Shown piece by piece: positions 6,670 through 29,915 of a stretch of 64,000 nucleotides of DNA. This DNA comes from Pseudomonas oryzihabitans. Lineage in GTDB: Bacteria > Pseudomonadota > Gammaproteobacteria > Pseudomonadales > Pseudomonadaceae. The notes beneath the pieces are model-generated. The model was not told where the DNA came from. It saw only the letters and a program-made list of their open reading frames with translations, and searched no databases. How positions within the stretch are numbered: position 1 is the first letter of the stretch; each line of letters starts with the position of its first letter. Location: positions 2,378,501 through 2,442,500 of the forward strand of contig NZ_CP013987.1 of assembly GCF_001518815.1 (NCBI RefSeq), in the 5' to 3' direction. Position numbers and translations under genes: made by a program.

Positions 6670-7371
6670 ATGGCCTCCTCTCCCGCGAAAAGCCACTTCC
6701 AGGCAGCTGCGGCGGCGCTCGCCGCCGCGGCCGCCGGGCCGGCCGACACCATGGCGGGCCGCACCGTGTACGAGCAGCAGCTGGCCCAGCTGCTGCAGGA
6801 CCGGCTGCGACTCAAGCAGGTGCAATCCACCCAGGCCAAGGCCGAACTCAAGCGGCAGCTGCTCGGCGCCTACGCTGACTATGTCAGCGGCGTGCTCGAG
6901 GGCGGCAATGGCGCCCAAGACGAAGTGCTGGTCACCGTGATGATCTGGCGCATCGATGCCGGCGAGTTCGCCGGCGCCCTGGACATCGCCGCCTACGTGC
7001 TGCGCCACGGCCTGCTGATGCCCGATCGCTTCGAGCGCACCCCGGGCTGCCTGATCGCCGAGGAAGTCGCCGAAGGCGCACTCGCAGCGCAGAAAGCCGG
7101 CCAGATCTTCGACCTGGACATCCTGGTCCGCACCGCCGTACTCACCGACGAGCACGACATGCCCGACGAGGCGCGCGCCAAGCTCTACCTGGCCATCGGC
7201 CGGGCCGAGCTGGCCGACGTCGACGAGGATCGACCAGGCCGTCCGGGCCAATTGGTCTCGGCGATCGAGATGCTGCGCAAGGCGATCGGCTTGCACGACC
7301 GCTGCGGCGGCAAGAAAGACCTGGAACGGGCCGAGCGCCTGGCCAAGAAACATGCCGCCCCTGGCGGCTAA
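6670..7371 (+). CDS. M: terminase small subunit (P2 gpM-like)
   Basis: The product is 233 residues (P2 gpM 247). It recognises the cos site and activates the gpP motor. It begins three bases after the N stop. The Ala-rich start followed by YEQQLAQLLQDRLRLKQVQS and the later motif LDIAAYVLRHGLLMPDRF (about residues 102-119) match the P2 endonuclease subunit family. Downstream, 7372-7473 is a 100-base GC-rich spacer before L with no gene. Confidence 0.9.
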   Translation: MASSPAKSHFQAAAAALAAAAAGPADTMAGRTVYEQQLAQLLQDRLRLKQVQSTQAKAELKRQLLGAYADYVSGVLEGGNGAQDEVLVTVMIWRIDAGEFAGALDIAAYVLRHGLLMPDRFERTPGCLIAEEVAEGALAAQKAGQIFDLDILVRTAVLTDEHDMPDEARAKLYLAIGRAELADVDEDRPGRPGQLVSAIEMLRKAIGLHDRCGGKKDLERAERLAKKHAAPGG

Positions 7372-8496: not shown

Positions 8497-9317
8497 ACCA
8501 GCCCAAGATCCTGATCCTCGGCGCCCACGGCCTGGCCGTGCGCGACCTGCAGAAAGCCCTGACCGCGGCCGGCTTCACCGTCGACCTGGATGGCGACTAT
8601 GACGAAGGCACCGAGCACGCCGTCGAAGCCTTCCAGCGCTCTGTCGGCCTAGTCGCCGATGGCATCGCTGGCCCGAAGACCTTCGCCGCCCTGCTCGGCA
8701 AGCGTGACCTGCTCCACCTGGGCTACGCGGACCTCGAGCTCGCTGCCAAGGCCCTGGGCGTCCCCATCGCGGCCGTCCAGGCGGTCAACGAGGTCGAGTC
8801 CAAGGGCGAAGGCTTCCTGGACAACGGCAAGGTGGTGATCCTGTTCGAGCGCCACGTCTTCTACCAGCGCCTGGTCAAGGCCCACGGTCAGGCCGAGGCC
8901 GATCGCCTGGCGGCCCTCAACCCGAACCTGATCAACCCGAAGTCCGGCGGCTATGCCGGCGGTGCGGCGGAGTGGCAGCGCCTGACCTCGGCCCGGCAGA
9001 TCGATGAGGCCTGTGCGCTGGAGTCGTGCAGCTGGGGCCTGTTCCAGGTCATGGGCTACCACTGGCAGGACCTGGGCTATGCCAGCGTCCAGGACTTCGT
9101 CACCCGCATGCAGGCCAGCGAGGCCGAGCAGCTCGACGCCTTCGTCCGCTTCGTCAAAGCGGAGCCCGCTCTGCTCAAGGCGCTCAAGGCCGGCAAGTGG
9201 GCCGACTTCGCCCGCGGCTACAACGGCCCGGCCTACGCCCGCAACCTCTACGACGTGAAGCTTGAGCGTGCCTTCGCCCGCTACAGCGCCGCCGCCCCGA
9301 CTAAGGACGCCGCATGA
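8493..9317 (+). CDS. endolysin: peptidoglycan-binding domain plus N-acetylmuramidase
   Basis: The product is 274 residues, longer than P2 gpK (165). An N-terminal peptidoglycan-binding domain (PG_binding_1 type) covers about residues 8-70 (VRDLQKALTAAGF, AVEAFQR). The C-terminal domain (about 85-265) matches the N-acetylmuramidase family DUF3380, with the NEVESKGEGF segment at 99-108 holding candidate catalytic glutamates, and SWGLFQVMGYHW further on. It lacks a signal peptide, so export depends on the holin. This two-domain type is common in Pseudomonas phages. Confidence 0.93.
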   Translation: MNQPKILILGAHGLAVRDLQKALTAAGFTVDLDGDYDEGTEHAVEAFQRSVGLVADGIAGPKTFAALLGKRDLLHLGYADLELAAKALGVPIAAVQAVNEVESKGEGFLDNGKVVILFERHVFYQRLVKAHGQAEADRLAALNPNLINPKSGGYAGGAAEWQRLTSARQIDEACALESCSWGLFQVMGYHWQDLGYASVQDFVTRMQASEAEQLDAFVRFVKAEPALLKALKAGKWADFARGYNGPAYARNLYDVKLERAFARYSAAAPTKDAA

Positions 9318-9520
9318 CACCCGTCACCGACGTGCAGCGCCTGGAGCCGCAGGATGGGGAGGTCTTCATCCTACCGGCCGGCGCGTCCTTTGAAGAAGCT
9401 GAGCGCCTCTGCGAAGCCATCCAGACCGCCAAGCCGGGCGTGCGGGCTGTCGTGGTAATCGGCGAGCTCGAACACCTGGACCAGGCGGCCATGGGCCGTG
9501 CTGGCTGGTACCGCCGATGA
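9314..9520 (+). CDS. small conserved phage protein in lysis cassette
   Basis: The product is 68 residues, acidic, with no membrane segment. It overlaps the endolysin stop and the spanin start by a few bases (ATGA-type overlaps), so it is translationally coupled within the lysis cassette. I recognise no functional family; its role in lysis, if any, is unknown. Confidence 0.7.
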   Translation: MTPVTDVQRLEPQDGEVFILPAGASFEEAERLCEAIQTAKPGVRAVVVIGELEHLDQAAMGRAGWYRR

Positions 9521-9951
9521 TCAGCTGGAAGGAGAAGGCGCTCTTCGCGCTCGCCCTGGCCCTGACGATCACCGTGCTGTGCCTGACCCTCTATGGGCAG
9601 AGCCTGCGCATCGACCAGGCCAACCAGAAGCGCGAGGCTGCTGAGGACCAGGTCACCCAGCTGACCGGGGATCGCGACCACCTCACGGCCACCCTCACCG
9701 AGCAGCGGGCCGCCCAGGCCCAGCTGCAGACCACCCAAACCGACCTGCGCCGCGAGATCGATGTCCGCAAGCGCCGGATCCAGGAGCTCGAACATGAAAA
9801 CGCTGAACTCAGGGCGTGGGCTGGCCAGCCTCTGCCTGCTGCTGCTCGCCGGCTGCGCCAGCGGCCCGTCCTCACCGGAGCCGCGGCTTACCGTGAGTGG
9901 CTGTCCAGTGGTAACGCGCTGCCAGCTGCCGTCGACCGCCCCGCGCAATAA
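9517..9951 (+). CDS. lysB: inner-membrane spanin (LysB-like)
   Basis: The product is 144 residues. A single N-terminal membrane segment (residues 7-26) is followed by a long periplasmic coiled coil (about 30-105), the plan of i-spanins. With the nested o-spanin it would fuse inner and outer membranes in the last step of lysis. The C-terminal third is encoded over the o-spanin gene in another frame, as in P2 lysB/lysC. Confidence 0.85.
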   Translation: MISWKEKALFALALALTITVLCLTLYGQSLRIDQANQKREAAEDQVTQLTGDRDHLTATLTEQRAAQAQLQTTQTDLRREIDVRKRRIQELEHENAELRAWAGQPLPAAARRLRQRPVLTGAAAYREWLSSGNALPAAVDRPAQ

Positions 9952-10051
9952 CGGCGAGCTCCTGGACGACAGCGAGGTCCTGGAAGCTGCCTGGGCCGAC
10001 TGCGCCGCCCAGGTCGATATGGTCTATGACGCCCAGCAGGCCCACCCATGA
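9794..10051 (+). CDS. lysC: outer-membrane spanin lipoprotein (LysC-like), nested
   Basis: The product is 85 residues. It has a lipoprotein signal with lipobox LLAGC after residue 15, then a short proline-containing periplasmic domain with further cysteines. It starts within lysB in the +1 frame and ends overlapping the R start (CCATGA). I chose the ATG at 9794 because it directly precedes the signal peptide (MKTLNSGRGLASLCLLLLAG). The nested lipoprotein arrangement is diagnostic of P2-type spanins. Confidence 0.88.
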   Translation: MKTLNSGRGLASLCLLLLAGCASGPSSPEPRLTVSGCPVVTRCQLPSTAPRNNGELLDDSEVLEAAWADCAAQVDMVYDAQQAHP

Positions 10052-10578
10052 ACAAGCCCGAAAGCCTGCGCGCTCACCTGCTCGCCGCCGTCCCTGAGTT
10101 GCGCTACAGCCCTGACCGGCTGCTGGTCTTCATCGACAAGGGCAAGCTGCGCTGCACCGCGGCGGCCAGCCTGTCCTGGGAGTACGGCTACGAGCTGCAG
10201 ATCATCCTGACCGACTTCGCCGGCCACCCGGACGCCGTGATGCTGCCGCTGCTGGCCTGGGTCCGGACGAATCAGTCCGAGCTGCTGGCCAACCTGGACA
10301 AGTCCGCCCAGGGCATCGGCTTCGAGGCCGACATCCTGGACAACTCCAAGGTAGATCTGGCGATCACTCTGCCCCTCACCGAGCGCGTGGTCGTGAAACG
10401 CCAACCGGACGACACCTACCAGCTGAGCCACGTACCCGAATCCCCGTACACCGAGTACCAGGAGCCGGCCACCTGGCAGGTCTTCACCGGTTGCGAGCTG
10501 CTCGCCGAGTGGCAATCCGGATCTGCCGGCGACGCCTTGGCCCTGGAAACGCCGCAGCCGGGTCGCAGCCATGGCTGA
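10048..10578 (+). CDS. R: tail completion protein (P2 gpR-like)
   Basis: The product is 176 residues (P2 gpR 155). The beginning MNKPESLRAHLLAAVPEL and the FIDKGKLRCTAA segment match P2 gpR, needed with gpS to finish the tail for head joining. It overlaps the spanin stop and the S start. Confidence 0.9.
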   Translation: MNKPESLRAHLLAAVPELRYSPDRLLVFIDKGKLRCTAAASLSWEYGYELQIILTDFAGHPDAVMLPLLAWVRTNQSELLANLDKSAQGIGFEADILDNSKVDLAITLPLTERVVVKRQPDDTYQLSHVPESPYTEYQEPATWQVFTGCELLAEWQSGSAGDALALETPQPGRSHG

Positions 10579-23360: not shown

Positions 23361-24628
23361 TCCAGGAGCTGCTCGACACCGCCTACGGACAGCTGCGCAC
23401 CCTCGGCCGCGACCTGGTGCAGGGCGCCACCTATGCCCAGGCGCGCTACCAGATCCTGGTCGACGGCAAGGACATCAGCGCCCTCATCGCGCCGCGGCTG
23501 ATCAGCCTGGATCTAACGGACAACCGCGGCCTCGAGGCCGACCAGTTGAGCCTGGTGCTGTCCGACCATGACGGCCTGCTGGCCATCCCGCCCCGGGGCG
23601 CCAAAATCCGCCTCTGGCTGGGCTGGTCCACCACCGGCCTGATCGACAAGGGCAGCTACATCGTCGACGAGACCGAGCACAGCGGCGCCCCAGATGTGCT
23701 CAGCATCCGCGCCCGCAGCGCCGACCTGCGCAAGGGCCTCAAGACCAAGCGGGACCAGAGCTACAGCGCCACCACCCTCGGCGCCGTGCTGCGCGTCCTG
23801 GCCGCACGCCAGGGCCTCACCCCGCTCATCGCGCCCGACCTTGAGGCGCAGCCCGTCCTGCAGCTGGACCAGACCGGCGAATCGGACGCCAACCTCCTGA
23901 CCCGCCTGGGCGAGGACTACGACGCGGTGGCCACCGTGAAGGCTGGCCGGCTGCTGTTCCTCCCGGCCGGCGGCGGCAAGGCCGTGAGCGGCGCCGACCT
24001 GGGCCACGTCACCCTCACTCGCAAGGACGGCGACCAGCACAACTACCTCCAGGCCGATCGCGAGAGCTACGACGCCGTGCGTGCCTTCTACTACGACGTC
24101 AACAGCGCCAAGAAACAGGAGGCCATTGCCGGTGGCGGCGAGAACGTGAAGGACCTGCGCCACACCTACACCGACCAGCTCTCCGCGCTGCGCGCCGCCC
24201 GGGCCGAGTGGAACCGCCTGCAGCGCGGTACTGCCACCCTCACCTACCAGCTCGCGCTCGGCCGCCCGGAGCTCATGCCCGAACTCACCTACACCCTCCA
24301 GGGCGTGAAGGCCGAGATCGACGCCATCATCTGGTACGGGGGGAACGTCCAGCACAGTCTCACGGCCAACGGCGGCTACACCACGCGCCTGGAGCTGGAA
24401 GCCAAGCTGCCGGAGGACCTGGTCGCCGACCTGGTCGACGAGATCCAGAGCGACTTCACCGGCATCATCGCCTACTACCGCGATCCCAAGACCGGCAAGG
24501 AGCATACCCTCAGCGAGGGCGACCAGAGTAAGCCGCGGCGGCTGCGGCATCTGTATGCCACGAAGGCGACGGCGAAGCGGGCAGTGGAGCGGGAGTGGAA
24601 GCGGCTGCAGGAAAGTCACTCAGCCTAA
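23357..24628 (+). CDS. D: late control/baseplate hub protein (P2 gpD-like)
   Basis: The product is 423 residues from a GTG start overlapping the U stop (P2 gpD 387). It is the baseplate hub homologous to T4 gp27. RYQILVDGKDISALIAPRL and the C-terminal IDAIIWYGGNVQHSL / YTTRLELEAKLPEDL segments are family signatures. The extreme C-terminus (RRLRHLYATKATAKRAVEREW) has a degenerate second copy at 24862-24927, and residues about 284-367 have a second copy at 27508-27756. This marks recombination around the 3' end of the gene. Confidence 0.94.
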   Translation: MIQELLDTAYGQLRTLGRDLVQGATYAQARYQILVDGKDISALIAPRLISLDLTDNRGLEADQLSLVLSDHDGLLAIPPRGAKIRLWLGWSTTGLIDKGSYIVDETEHSGAPDVLSIRARSADLRKGLKTKRDQSYSATTLGAVLRVLAARQGLTPLIAPDLEAQPVLQLDQTGESDANLLTRLGEDYDAVATVKAGRLLFLPAGGGKAVSGADLGHVTLTRKDGDQHNYLQADRESYDAVRAFYYDVNSAKKQEAIAGGGENVKDLRHTYTDQLSALRAARAEWNRLQRGTATLTYQLALGRPELMPELTYTLQGVKAEIDAIIWYGGNVQHSLTANGGYTTRLELEAKLPEDLVADLVDEIQSDFTGIIAYYRDPKTGKEHTLSEGDQSKPRRLRHLYATKATAKRAVEREWKRLQESHSA

Positions 24629-24861: not shown

Positions 24862-24927
24862 CATGTTTACGTAGCCAAAACGGCGGCGAGGCGGGCAGTT
24901 GAGCGGGAACTCAAAATGACCCAATAG
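24862..24927 (+). pseudogene. relic of a second gpD C-terminus
   Basis: A plus-strand frame (HVYVAKTAARRAVEREL, then stop) aligns with the last residues of the intact gpD (HLYATKATAKRAVEREW). Only about 21 codons remain and no start is near. It marks the junction where a foreign D allele and its downstream cargo joined this phage. Confidence 0.75.
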
Positions 24928-25070: not shown

Positions 25071-25874
25071 ATGGAATTCGATTTTTCAATAAAATATGAC
25101 TCCGAAGTTGAAGAATTTGATGGCCTTGACATGTATCATGGATCAAAATCCATGCAAGGTCTTTCAGAAGTAATAGCCATTGCAACCCACGGAATTGTAA
25201 ACAAGCATTTTATAAAAAAAACCACAGCTGCAAAGGGTTTCAAGAATGAATTCAAAACAAGCTTCGAAGGATCTTTCAAGCAGCGCTTCAAAGTTATATT
25301 CAACACTGAAAGAACAATAAGAAGAATCAACGAAATAACCCCTCGAAGCTATATTGAAATTCTCAAAAAATCCATAAATGAAGTTATAGGAAACAATATC
25401 GATCTGACCAGGCGAACCGCCATCAGAAATTTCGCTGATATGTATTTTAGCGAAGATATTAGCCATCGAATCTCAACATCGCTAAAAGATGTGCACGCGC
25501 CCATCAAAAACCAAGGCTACAAGGCAACTCTCTATGCTGCCCAAACGCCTATAGCGACTTTCAACCAGCAGACCCTCTCTTATCTCGAAGAGGAAATAAT
25601 GAGCGACGAAAGGGAAACCCTTATTGTGGGTATAAGTCGCTTTAATGGCCGCACAGCAACTGGACGTCTCATTGCCGGCCTAGATGATGAGTCCTTCAGT
25701 TTTGTTCCTGCAAACCCACTCAGAACTGACAAGAAAAGAGAGCTAGCCAGAAGCCTTTACGGAGTAGCGGCAGGGCGATTCGAGCCAGTTAGAGTCGAAG
25801 TCACCAGAGTCACGTTAAATAATGGGATGACTAAATTTTTCTTCCTGCACGACGTATCATCGATAGATGACTAA
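25071..25874 (+). CDS. AT-rich hypothetical protein, first gene of two-gene cassette
   Basis: The product is 267 residues, soluble and AT-rich in codon use. The N-terminus (IKYDSEVEEFDGLDMYHGSKSMQGLSEVIAI split by a DMYHGSKSM core at about 20-28) resembles proteins of unknown function (DUF7946-like) found beside membrane effectors in defence islands; this is a tentative recall. A second region of about 70 residues near the end (RFNGRTATGRLIAGLDDESFSF, then VTRVTLNNGMTKFFF) looks like a beta-rich domain. Its stop overlaps the start of the next gene by 8 bases, so the two products are probably made together and may interact. Confidence 0.7.
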   Translation: MEFDFSIKYDSEVEEFDGLDMYHGSKSMQGLSEVIAIATHGIVNKHFIKKTTAAKGFKNEFKTSFEGSFKQRFKVIFNTERTIRRINEITPRSYIEILKKSINEVIGNNIDLTRRTAIRNFADMYFSEDISHRISTSLKDVHAPIKNQGYKATLYAAQTPIATFNQQTLSYLEEEIMSDERETLIVGISRFNGRTATGRLIAGLDDESFSFVPANPLRTDKKRELARSLYGVAAGRFEPVRVEVTRVTLNNGMTKFFFLHDVSSIDD

Positions 25875-26574
25875 GTCTATTTTCATAGCGGCAATACTAA
25901 CCCTAATTATTGCCGCATATAGCTTTTATTTTATCCTAAACCCACACATACCTGAGCCATCTGAACTTGGGCCGCTCGGCGACTTTATCGGCGGAAATAT
26001 AAATCCAATACTAACTTTTATCTCGACAATTGTATTGGTCGAAACATTTGTGGTCCAATCCCACGCAGCAAAACTTGCAAGAGAGGAAAGCAAAGAGGCT
26101 AGAGAGGCGCTACGTCAACAAACAAAAACTGCAGCTATTCAGATATTTGAAACCTCATTTTTCAATATCGTCAACATGTGTCTAAATGACTTTTCCAGCA
26201 CTGAAATAGTAAAAAATGGACGGTCGATCAAAGGATCAAAAGCCTTCGAGGAAATTGAAAAGAATTTTCAATTTTTAAAATCGAGAGGAATGGATCCTGG
26301 CGAGCTATTCGCCCACCTTGATTCCGACCACAACGACATCTGCTTCAATGTTATAAAAAATTTCTCTATCCTTTACGACTTCATAAAAAATAACGCACCT
26401 GAAGGCTCGTCCGAAAAGTATATATCCATTTTAAATAGACTTATACCAACACATTTAAACTACATAATATGTATAGCTGAAAACCATATGGAATGGCCCA
26501 TACTAAAACCATATCGGGAGTGCGGTTTTTTCGAAAGAAAAAGCATTGATAAACTAATTAAAGCCTATGCATGA
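25867..26574 (+). CDS. putative abortive-infection membrane protein (putAbiC-like)
   Basis: The product is 235 residues. There is an N-terminal membrane segment (residues 4-24), then the motif GPLGDFIGGNINPILTF at about 37-53, a second membrane segment (about 50-66) and a coiled coil (about 68-92). The GDFxGGxxNP motif followed by a membrane helix and coiled coil is the hallmark of the putative phage abortive infection family (putAbiC). The soluble C-terminal domain includes SILNRLIPTHLNYIICIAENH. It overlaps the upstream gene, indicating a two-gene operon. The likely role is membrane-linked defence against other phages; that is inference. Confidence 0.75.
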   Translation: MTKSIFIAAILTLIIAAYSFYFILNPHIPEPSELGPLGDFIGGNINPILTFISTIVLVETFVVQSHAAKLAREESKEAREALRQQTKTAAIQIFETSFFNIVNMCLNDFSSTEIVKNGRSIKGSKAFEEIEKNFQFLKSRGMDPGELFAHLDSDHNDICFNVIKNFSILYDFIKNNAPEGSSEKYISILNRLIPTHLNYIICIAENHMEWPILKPYRECGFFERKSIDKLIKAYA

Positions 26575-26621: not shown

Positions 26622-27056
26622 TCATCCCGCCCGCGGCAGCTCCCCCCACCGCGTCGTATACCCCCGCGACAGCAGCTCCCGCCGCATCTGCCACCCCGGA
26701 TCGGCAGGCATCCGCCCCACGTGCAGCGCCGCCTGCCCGTACCGGGCATTGATCCGGTCCACCACCTGCATCAGCTCGCTGGGCTGCCCCTGCCCGGCCG
26801 GGGCGGAGAGATCCGGCGTGAACTCGTCCGTCTGCACGATGCTGCCCAGCACCACCGCGCACTTCGAATAGGCGTAGCCCTCGCGATAGATGGGGTCCAA
26901 GCCGGCCAGGGCGGACTGCACCAGGATGCGGGTATCGTTCGGATGCGCGAGCTGGATGCCCAGGCTGCGGTGGTAACGGCGTTCCTCGGGTTCGTGCTGG
27001 CCGGTTTGCACGCTCACCAGCAGCATGGTGCACAGCGCCCCTGCTCCTGGAGCTTC
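26622..27056 (-). pseudogene. truncated umuC (DNA polymerase V subunit C-terminus)
   Basis: The frame encodes about 145 residues matching the C-terminal third of UmuC/RumB, which is normally about 420 residues. Signatures are GALCTMLLVSVQTG, then VVDRINARYGQAALHVGRM and RELLSRGYTTRWGELPRA, the DUF4113-type tail. The catalytic palm, fingers and thumb are missing, so it cannot act as a polymerase. No umuD lies nearby. It is opposite in strand to the flanking cargo genes and probably arrived by recombination with a mobile element carrying a polymerase V operon. Confidence 0.85.
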
Positions 27057-27133
27057 TCGGCTGTTCGGGCCACCTAGGTTGCGGCACATCCTATGAGGCA
27101 CACTCCCTAGTCCGCAGGACGGAATGGAAGCCA

Positions 27134-27472: not shown

Positions 27473-27507
27473 AAGGCCTAGGCACGGGCTCTCTAAATAC
27501 CTAGCCA

Positions 27508-27756
27508 CGTGGAACCGCCTGCGGCGCGGTACCTCCATCCTCACCTACCAGCTCGCCTTGGGCCGGCCTGAGCTCATGCCTGAGCTGACCTACCCCCTGC
27601 AGGACGTGAAGGCTGAGATCGACGCCATCATCTGGTACGGGCGGAACGTGCAGCAAAACCTCACCGCGGAAGGCGGCTACACCACCCGGCTAGAGCTGGA
27701 GGCCAAGCTGCCTGAGGACTTAGTCGCCAACCTGGTCGGCGAGATCCGATGCAAAT
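27508..27756 (+). pseudogene. relic of a second gpD (middle part)
   Basis: The plus-strand frame (WNRLRRGTSILTYQLALGRP and on to YTTRLELEAKLPEDLVANL) aligns with residues about 284-367 of the intact gpD with frequent synonymous and a few coding changes. It has no start of its own and ends shortly after at a stop at 27777-27779. It is a different D allele from the intact one. Confidence 0.85.
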
Positions 27757-27891: not shown

Positions 27892-28668
27892 GTGGGAGTA
27901 TTCTTTGAGTCGTATCAGGCGAAGATGTGTTGCTTGTGTGGATCTGGTGAGTCGCTAACTGGTGAACACAAGATCAAAGCATCTGCCTTGCGAAAAATCT
28001 TCGGAAACGATCGCATGGTCATCGGAATTTTTGATGGCGAGAGCATTGTACGTCCCGCGCAAGGCCCAAAATCCGAAGCTTTTCACTTCACCGCCCGGAT
28101 GTGCTCGACGTGTAATGGAGCGAGAACACAAGCAGCCGATAGAGAGTTCGACAGGTTTCATGCGCTGGTATCAGAGCGTTGCCTGAAAGGCGAGGATCCG
28201 TCTTCAGTTTTCGACCTACCCCAGTATGAGATCGGTAGCGAAGCCTATCTCAATGTGTTCCGCTATTTTTCAAAGCTGTTATGCTGCCATGTCGCGGAGT
28301 CCTCCGGCCCTCGACCGTTGGATGTCAGTCGGTTTGCCATTGGTGACGTTGACCGTAATGTTGTTTGTCTTAGTATTGATTCGGATCCAACCTATCTCGA
28401 TTTCCGGGAAGTGTACGGTGAACATAAGTATGCAGCCCATGGGGGGCTAATCGTCCCCCTAGACTCGATGACTAGACGGCCTACACGTTTCATTAGCTCA
28501 ATCAGCCTAGGCGCGGTTCGGTATAGGTTTTGGACTAAATTACTACCGATTTCGGGAGAGGCTTTAAGATGGTTTCATCGGGCATTTTGGGATAAATGCC
28601 AAGCGGCTTATAAAGATGCAGTCGAAAACCCGCTATCAGATGAGCAGAAGCGCCGTCTGGGCCTTTAG
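27892..28668 (+). CDS. HNH-type zinc-binding protein, probable nuclease
   Basis: The product is 258 residues from a GTG start; AGGAG at 27881-27885 gives good spacing. Cys13-x2-Cys16, then EHKI with His26, and Cys71-x2-Cys74-Asn75 outline a zinc-stabilised HNH fold. The remainder (about 90-258) has no recognised domain. The base composition is lower in GC than the structural genes. Its place in the cargo region, converging on the DUF4238 gene, suggests an accessory role such as defence; an inactive HNH cannot be ruled out by eye. Confidence 0.65.
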   Translation: MGVFFESYQAKMCCLCGSGESLTGEHKIKASALRKIFGNDRMVIGIFDGESIVRPAQGPKSEAFHFTARMCSTCNGARTQAADREFDRFHALVSERCLKGEDPSSVFDLPQYEIGSEAYLNVFRYFSKLLCCHVAESSGPRPLDVSRFAIGDVDRNVVCLSIDSDPTYLDFREVYGEHKYAAHGGLIVPLDSMTRRPTRFISSISLGAVRYRFWTKLLPISGEALRWFHRAFWDKCQAAYKDAVENPLSDEQKRRLGL

Positions 28669-28823: not shown

Positions 28824-29915
28824 TCACTCTTTCCCGCTATACCGTTCGCCTAGCACCCTCTTCATATTTTCCTCAATTGATTTAGCGTCTTGTACCGCTT
28901 TATCAAATTCGGCTTTGCTGTTCGGCCGCCGACCAAACTCATCTTGAAAATAGTAAGAGCCGTCCTTCATTTTTACCGTCATGAAACCGCTCTGAAGCGC
29001 TGTCGCATAGTTTCGAGGCATCAAAAATCTTCCCAGCTTGCTCCACAGAGTAATTTCAAGATGGCGTTCGGGGAACAAGTCTTGCTCGTTGCAGCTCGCG
29101 ATGTATCGCTCTGCACGGGTTTTAATTATATAGTTGACCTCTCGCACCTGTTTCTCAGAAAGCTTTCTGCCTCTCTGAATTCCATCGTAAGTAACTATCG
29201 GATTATCAAAAAGTCTTGGATTGGTGCGTGATCTTCTAGCTCGAAGTTCGCCTTGCTTGCGCCCCCACTCCCTATGTGTGATTACCATCAAGTGGTTGCT
29301 ATCGAGTGGAATTAAGGTTTGGGTTCCCAACCAGTGCTGGGGAACGTCTAAACCTTCCGGTATGGCACGATCTTTCGGAAAAACGTGAGGATTGAAAAAT
29401 GTCACGGGGTGATCTGAAAAAATGAACTTGGTCTCTGACTGGGCAGCTTCAAAAATCTCTATAGCGCCCTCCATCCACATCACACAGTGCATCCTGCGAA
29501 CTTCCTGCATGCGAACCATGAGTTCTTGCTGATTTTTCGTCGCAAGTGTTGACTGGAGGAATCGGAGGCCTTTAGGGGTGCGCAATCGGAGGGCATCAAG
29601 GAACTCGAAAATTTGGGTGTATGTAAAGTGCACTTTGTTCCAGTCACGTTCGAGTAACGCCTGAATTGCCTCCTTCCCCGTTCTGTCTATTGATCCAAAC
29701 AGAAATCTTTCGATGTCATCATTCGGTTCGCCCAGCACGCGGGTGGTGTATAGATCCCGCTCAAAAAACCAAGCATCTGGCCCCTTGGTTAGAATTGCAC
29801 GCGCTTGACCGACAATCGCTCCTTTAGCATCGCGGAAAATCTCGGGCCGCAAATCCAGTATTTTGAACGCGGTATTACCCTGTAGAAGAAATCCCCTCTG
29901 ATACCACTGGGGCAC
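28824..29915 (-). CDS. DUF4238 family protein (start uncertain)
   Basis: The frame gives 363 residues from a GTG. The DUF4238 family begins with a conserved HxYVPQxYxRxF motif. Here HHYVPQWYQRGF spans the GTG, so the motif's first residues (HHY) lie upstream of the only standard start. The same frame stays open upstream for about 15 codons back to a stop and has no ATG, GTG or TTG there. Either an unusual start (ATT) is used or the 5' end is damaged; an ATG in another frame lies nearby at about 29962-29964. FIFSDHPVTFFNP near residue 160 is also typical. The function is unknown; the family often occurs in defence and mobile regions. Confidence 0.7.
   Translation of the reverse strand: MPQWYQRGFLLQGNTAFKILDLRPEIFRDAKGAIVGQARAILTKGPDAWFFERDLYTTRVLGEPNDDIERFLFGSIDRTGKEAIQALLERDWNKVHFTYTQIFEFLDALRLRTPKGLRFLQSTLATKNQQELMVRMQEVRRMHCVMWMEGAIEIFEAAQSETKFIFSDHPVTFFNPHVFPKDRAIPEGLDVPQHWLGTQTLIPLDSNHLMVITHREWGRKQGELRARRSRTNPRLFDNPIVTYDGIQRGRKLSEKQVREVNYIIKTRAERYIASCNEQDLFPERHLEITLWSKLGRFLMPRNYATALQSGFMTVKMKDGSYYFQDEFGRRPNSKAEFDKAVQDAKSIEENMKRVLGERYSGKE

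Follow-up and report, generated by a model that had tools for sequence, protein, structure and literature searches.

A DUF7946 gene and a short AbiC-related membrane-protein gene form a co-inherited pair in prophage cargo, a candidate abortive-infection cassette

The window analysed in this report is a stretch of 64,000 nucleotides (nt) of the Pseudomonas oryzihabitans genome (contig NZ_CP013987.1, positions 2,378,501 to 2,442,500), and its subject is a pair of overlapping genes, gene 1 and gene 2, carried as cargo by a P2-type prophage. Our principal finding is that these genes, which encode a soluble protein of the DUF7946 family and a short membrane protein related to AbiC, are one stable, co-inherited unit. 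We put at somewhat better than even (about 0.57) the probability that this unit is a two-gene abortive-infection cassette, in which the DUF7946 protein would act as the trigger and the membrane protein as the effector. The pair is laid out as follows.

25071-25874, + strand: gene 1, ATG start, 267 amino acids (aa), soluble; proposed trigger or sensor
25867-26574, + strand: gene 2, ATG start, 235 aa, membrane protein of a short AbiC-related family; proposed effector
25867-25874, + strand: overlap of the two reading frames, 8 nt

A stable gene pair in prophage cargo

The first-pass annotation of this DNA had described two overlapping AT-rich genes in a P2-type prophage, and this is borne out by the open reading frames (ORFs), by their composition and by the surrounding phage genes. 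The pair lies 3' of the tail gene D in a prophage with homologues of P2 gpQ, gpP, gpO, gpU and gpD (tblastn) and with Pfam matches to gpU, sheath, portal, gpP-like terminase and integrase. The guanine plus cytosine (G+C) content of the 1504-nt pair is 39.6%, against 64.5% in the prophage structural genes (1800-24628), and is the lowest for a stretch of this length anywhere in the window (1 of 1250 pair-sized windows, taken in steps of 50 nt, is as low). DNA resembling the structural part of the prophage is present in 25 phage records; the best covered among those listed is Pseudomonas phage Dobby (33% covered, 76.6% identity), with Stenotrophomonas phage Smp131 below it (12% covered, 75.0% identity).

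That the two genes are inherited together can be seen from either one. Gene 2 loci were collected from viral sequences (80 kept of 86 found) and from genomes, phages and plasmids, and a family tree was built from 94 distinct proteins, each of at least 150 aa. DUF7946 is encoded directly upstream in 26 of these rows and not in 64, the other 4 being at a contig edge. A single clade of 29 rows, with a support of 99 in the Shimodaira-Hasegawa-like approximate likelihood-ratio test (SH-aLRT), contains all 26 paired proteins, two of the contig-edge rows and one further protein, L107. Inside this short clade DUF7946 is directly upstream in 26 of 27 testable members, and outside it in 0 of 63, two further rows being at a contig edge. 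The single exception, L107, sits on a long branch and has other genes upstream instead of DUF7946; its placement is unsure because the tree is a quick one with several long branches. Across 32 distinct pairs, some of which are close relatives, gene 1 always precedes gene 2, with a spacing of -26 to +10 nt, and a mirror-tree comparison of these pairs gives a correlation of r = 0.92 between the two distance matrices (0 of 2000 permutations as high). In the tree of gene 1 (41 rows), one branch (SH-aLRT 99) splits the 32 rows paired with the short AbiC type from the 9 others. Whether the pair is conserved together, a point on which the first-pass annotation had hung its proposal, is thus answered in the affirmative by the clade counts and the mirror-tree correlation.

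The pair occupies two kinds of site in P2-type phages and is also found beyond them. In six loci it lies between gpA and gpQ, and in two others it adjoins gpQ; the gpA-gpQ interval is a P2 defence hotspot according to PMC9122126, and is noted as one also in PMC9519451. In the window, in loci L002-L005 and in a Plesiomonas prophage (L018), the pair is instead in the interval that follows gpD, in some cases with other cargo genes interposed, and the window copy is thereby at a site other than the hotspot. The earlier premise that P2-type phages carry defence cargo agrees with these positions, since they are P2 cargo sites and include the published hotspot. Likeness to the hotspot defence cargo of P2-like phages (PMC9122126, PMC9519451) consists in the six loci just mentioned and in a gene for a DUF4238 protein, which is a neighbour of the pair both in the window and in L002. 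Elsewhere, the pair is present in Klebsiella phage Kp4865-4 (whose record is flagged as unverified), on an Acinetobacter plasmid, in two large genome contigs of Pseudomonas in which no phage genes were recognised, and at locus L065, which may be a P4-like satellite because it has an ogr-like gene and an ORF that looks integrase-like by eye. Furthermore, 82 of 5426 complete Escherichia coli genomes hold the pair at 99% identity or more to the copy in STEC411.

The two proteins

Gene 1 had been thought to lack a clear named family, which proved incorrect. It matches DUF7946 (PF25678), a named but uncharacterised family, with 39.8 bits against a Pfam gathering cut-off of 27, and it belongs to phrog_13337 (E 9.7e-60), to which PHROG assigns no function. 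Among its 19 relatives in alignment A3, DUF7946 is matched in 8 and DUF7947 in 2 at E 0.01. The structure model of gene 1, with a predicted local distance difference test (pLDDT) score of 85.3, has two folded parts, the second of which is predicted from the secondary structure of the model and from structural matches to be an OB-type barrel; R190, N192, T195, G198, R199 and F211, all in the barrel region, are invariant in the 19 relatives.

25083-25397, + strand: DUF7946 match in gene 1, residues 5-109
25593-25871, + strand: predicted C-terminal OB-type barrel of gene 1, approximately residues 175-267

When the model was compared with a library of viral structures, the top match was to DUF6575 phage proteins (E 7.6e-9, probability 1.00, 288 columns), a fold match whose weak side is a TM-score of 0.41 and a root-mean-square deviation of 9.6. 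DUF6575 is given among the domains of the 21 defence systems of PMC9519451. Scans of gene 1 with Pfam, PHROG, PADLOC and NCBIfam yielded no significant nuclease or other enzyme family.

Gene 2 belongs to phrog_8999 (E 1.7e-32), again without an assigned function, and has no Pfam match even at E 1. Its model (pLDDT 85.4, predicted template-modelling score 0.63) comprises a short helix, a long unbroken helix and then a helical bundle, and found no convincing match among solved structures. The first-pass annotation had noticed a GDFxGGxxNP motif followed by a membrane helix and a coiled coil, a description that fits the model.

25870-25938, + strand: first membrane helix of gene 2, residues 2-24
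25957-26199, + strand: continuous helix of gene 2 in the model, residues 31-111, predicted second membrane helix running into a coiled coil
25978-26007, + strand: GDFIGGNINP motif of gene 2, residues 38-47, at the start of the second membrane helix

The motif residues G38, D39, G42, G43, N46 and P47 are invariant across 21 aligned short relatives and are conserved in longer relatives too, and GDFxGGxxNP appeared in 0 of 20,000 shuffled versions of the gene 2 protein. Of the 26 paired relatives 18 have the strict motif, as do 45 of the 64 unpaired ones; for a loose form the counts are 26 of 26 and 58 of 64, respectively. All these fractions are inflated because one of the collecting searches used the motif itself.

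Much of this architecture is common to the AbiC/putAbiC proteins (PF16872; AbiC and AbiP in PADLOC), which resemble gene 2 in having two membrane helices at the N-terminus, the GDFxGGxxNP motif, an FE...FF segment and further helices after it. An hhalign comparison of the 21 short relatives with 14 longer, putAbiC-type relatives gave a probability of 99.9% and an E value of 6.5e-31 over 196 columns, with an aligned span that runs from the membrane helices through the motif and the FE...FF segment into the beginning of the PF16872 region. The PF16872 domain itself was matched by 0 of the 21 short relatives, as against 13 of the 14 longer ones, and there was no PADLOC match to AbiC or AbiP for gene 2 and five paired relatives. 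Three unpaired relatives, taken from a tblastn search of plasmids with gene 2, were scanned in the same way; two matched PF16872 as well as PADLOC AbiC and AbiP, and the third matched neither. One of the five plasmid records recovered by that search is annotated as a putative phage abortive infection protein. Judged on these sequence comparisons, gene 2 is a short, diverged relative of the AbiC/putAbiC proteins, their kin and not a member by the Pfam domain test. The earlier designation of gene 2 as putAbiC-like is therefore right as to kinship and wrong if taken as membership, and the possibility that the protein would align with an unrelated family did not materialise. Two differences from the single-gene AbiC/putAbiC proteins are that the gene 2 type is shorter (231-259 aa in the 26 paired rows) and that it is paired with DUF7946.

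A proposed trigger and effector

No description of the pair, which may be listed unnamed in a supplementary hotspot table, no experiment on it, and no mention by name of DUF7946, DUF7947, putAbiC or PF16872 were found in the open-access literature, a scope that leaves aside subscription papers, preprints and supplementary tables. The pair does resemble lambda RexAB and the RexAB-type system of P. putida (PMC12894663, PMC11077077) in being a prophage two-gene cassette with a soluble gene followed by a membrane gene. According to these papers, RexA binds DNA and RexB affects the membrane; in P. putida, the soluble DNA-binding RexA-like protein triggers the membrane protein when over-expressed, part of the cells being permeabilised, and defence requires both genes (PMC12894663). 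No homology to lambda RexA or RexB was detected with single lambda sequences (hhalign probability 0.3% and 0.1%, respectively). Moreover, RexB has four predicted membrane helices where gene 2 has two, and the RexA domains described in the accessible text of PMC11077077 include no OB fold, unlike gene 1. By analogy, the pair most likely works like RexAB and is kin to AbiC, while these tests identify it as a member of neither.

We propose that gene 1 would recognise something made during infection. Our best guess, because of the OB barrel in its model, is a nucleic-acid or nucleoprotein intermediate. Gene 1 would then contact the cytoplasmic coiled coil of gene 2, which would assemble or open via the region of the GDFxGGxxNP motif and the second helix and damage the inner membrane, and the infected cell would halt growth before the phage is completed. 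For a soluble DNA-binding trigger acting on a membrane effector there is precedent in PMC12894663. The longer AbiC-type relatives may combine the two tasks in one protein; gene 2 no longer has a recognisable C-terminal signature, for which a separate protein may substitute.

The soluble-first order, the overlapping or abutting frames and the co-inheritance would be as compatible with a toxin under restraint as with an activator. A toxin-antitoxin logic, which we regard as unlikely, would make gene 1, produced first from the same message, the bound inhibitor of a membrane toxin, gene 2, from which infection would remove or displace it; the pair would still be a defence system, with gene 1 restraining rather than activating. 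Two observations argue against this. First, gene 1 is the larger protein of the two and folds into two parts, which sets it apart from most antitoxins. Second, longer AbiC-type relatives exist without DUF7946 upstream.

The proposal of a DUF7946 trigger and a membrane effector can also be viewed from gene 1 alone. In samples searched with gene 1 first, DUF7946 was present in 7 of the 398 genomes sampled from the phylum, in 4 of 369 from the class and in 8 of 249 from the genus to which Pseudomonas sp. PD9R belongs, making 18 distinct loci with the genome of the window counted once. A partner was defined as a gene on the same strand and at most 100 nt downstream, and its membrane helices were called by a simple hydropathy window. 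A membrane-protein gene, from one of several families, lies directly 3' of DUF7946 in 13 of the 18 loci, being of the short AbiC type in 8 and different in 5; neither kind of partner follows in the remaining 5. The DUF7946 match is under the Pfam cut-off at two loci, one with a different membrane partner and one with neither. Without the two loci at which the pair was known beforehand (that of the window and one other), the counts are 6 short AbiC, 5 other membrane and 5 neither (n = 16). In the Pseudomonas genus sample, in which that other locus is included, 8 of 8 DUF7946 genes precede a membrane-protein gene. Two of the five different membrane partners are homologous (48% identity, E 8e-62), and no other significant similarity was seen among the DUF7946 partners or to the gene 2 profile.

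Another of these five partners contains the sequence RNEAVH, which is reminiscent of the Rx4H motif of HEPN ribonucleases; at locus L157 (6127-6708) the RNEAVH-bearing DUF7946 partner has one membrane helix and no Pfam match. In a Vibrio gene array (L017), a DUF7946 gene has no adjacent membrane gene, and a 121-aa two-helix protein encoded 714 nt 3' of it (6710-7075) matches the gene 2 profile weakly (E 4e-4).

A bolder generalisation, which we offer tentatively and with more doubt than conviction, is that the DUF7946 proteins may form a family, so far unrecognised, of infection triggers that are interchangeable and have an OB-type reader, each of them coupled to one of several membrane effectors unrelated to one another (the short AbiC type, a 188-191-aa one-helix protein, a one-helix RNxxxH HEPN-like protein and others). 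On this view the AbiC fold would come in two versions, either as a single gene or split into an effector and a DUF7946 trigger.

That DUF7946 occurs beside membrane proteins of several kinds is consistent with one trigger serving a variety of effectors, and in this respect disfavours a reversal of roles, in which the membrane protein would respond to a change at the envelope or at the point of injection, and the effector on phage DNA or RNA would be gene 1, binding nucleic acid. The argument does not settle the matter, because there are also proteins of the AbiC-type fold that lack a DUF7946 partner. Such an arrangement, with a membrane sensor and a nucleic-acid-binding effector, is that of Kiwa. 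The OB-type barrel modelled in gene 1 would suit it, and a Rex-like system of phage Butters is reported, according to PMC12894663, to have a cytosolic effector. However, no significant nuclease or other enzyme family is recognised in gene 1, and we consider a reversal distinctly improbable. We give least credence to cargo for prophage maintenance or lysogenic conversion without an immune function (an envelope change, a stress response or similar), for although P2 cargo sites hold non-defence genes too (PMC9122126) and 5 of the 18 DUF7946 genes are not followed by a membrane partner, the spread of the pair over two P2 sites, a Klebsiella phage, an Acinetobacter plasmid and large bacterial contigs makes a P2-specific need hard to invoke, and in several cases hand-picked neighbours of the pair are candidate defence genes.

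Cassette borders, neighbours and significance

The cassette is flanked by two copies of the end of tail gene D, and further genes lie on its right.

24203-24446, + strand: left copy of the 3' part of tail gene D, 244 nt long and 85% identical to the copy at 27504-27747
26622-27101, - strand: DUF4113 ORF, probably a remnant
27504-27747, + strand: relic copy of the 3' part of gene D, right of the cassette, 85% identical to the left copy
27892-28668, + strand: ORF with a GEH segment and two CxxC pairs, resembling an HNH or zinc-finger protein when inspected by eye
28824-29915, - strand: DUF4238 gene, 51.4 bits against a cut-off of 27, 2.25 kb from the pair

A second, short repeat of the gene D end links 24548-24594 and 24862-24908 (74%). 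The simplest reading of the 244-nt duplication is that the cargo was acquired by recombination through the 3' end of gpD, leaving a relic, and the duplication is likely to be the scar of cargo exchange. The corresponding interval in L002-L005 holds other genes besides the pair, one of which (L004 3178-4026, also in L002 and L003) we take, from a motif in its start sequence, to be a probable C5 DNA methyltransferase.

As for the neighbours in the window, the ORF at 26622-27101 is regarded as a probable remnant because DUF4113 forms the C-terminus of polymerases of the UmuC type; near the pair in L003 and L005 there are related ORFs of greater length (426-428 aa). No family was found for the ORF at 27892-28668 in Pfam, PHROG, PADLOC or NCBIfam. 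The DUF4238 gene adjoins the pair in the virome prophage L002, and a single DUF4238 protein is reported to protect against T7 in PMC9122126. Ten proteins, chosen by hand, were compared with PADLOC (nine encoded by genes that flank the pair at eight loci, and one by a partner gene). Matches to known or candidate defence models were obtained for five, of which two are in L018; some of the matches are partial, to an ATPase part. In the same Plesiomonas prophage, a gene for an AAA ATPase and a DUF3226 gene (8681-10425), about 1.1 kb from the pair, match the PADLOC candidate system PDC-M38 along almost their entire length.

If the pair is indeed an abortive-infection cassette with a DUF7946 trigger and a membrane effector, the poorly understood AbiC/putAbiC family would gain a branch of two components, with the trigger encoded by one gene and the effector by another, and the two halves of AbiC-type defence could be tested apart. 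DUF7946 would also become a marker for more membrane-effector defence systems in prophages, plasmids and chromosomes, and two unnamed phage protein families, phrog_13337 and phrog_8999, would acquire a role.
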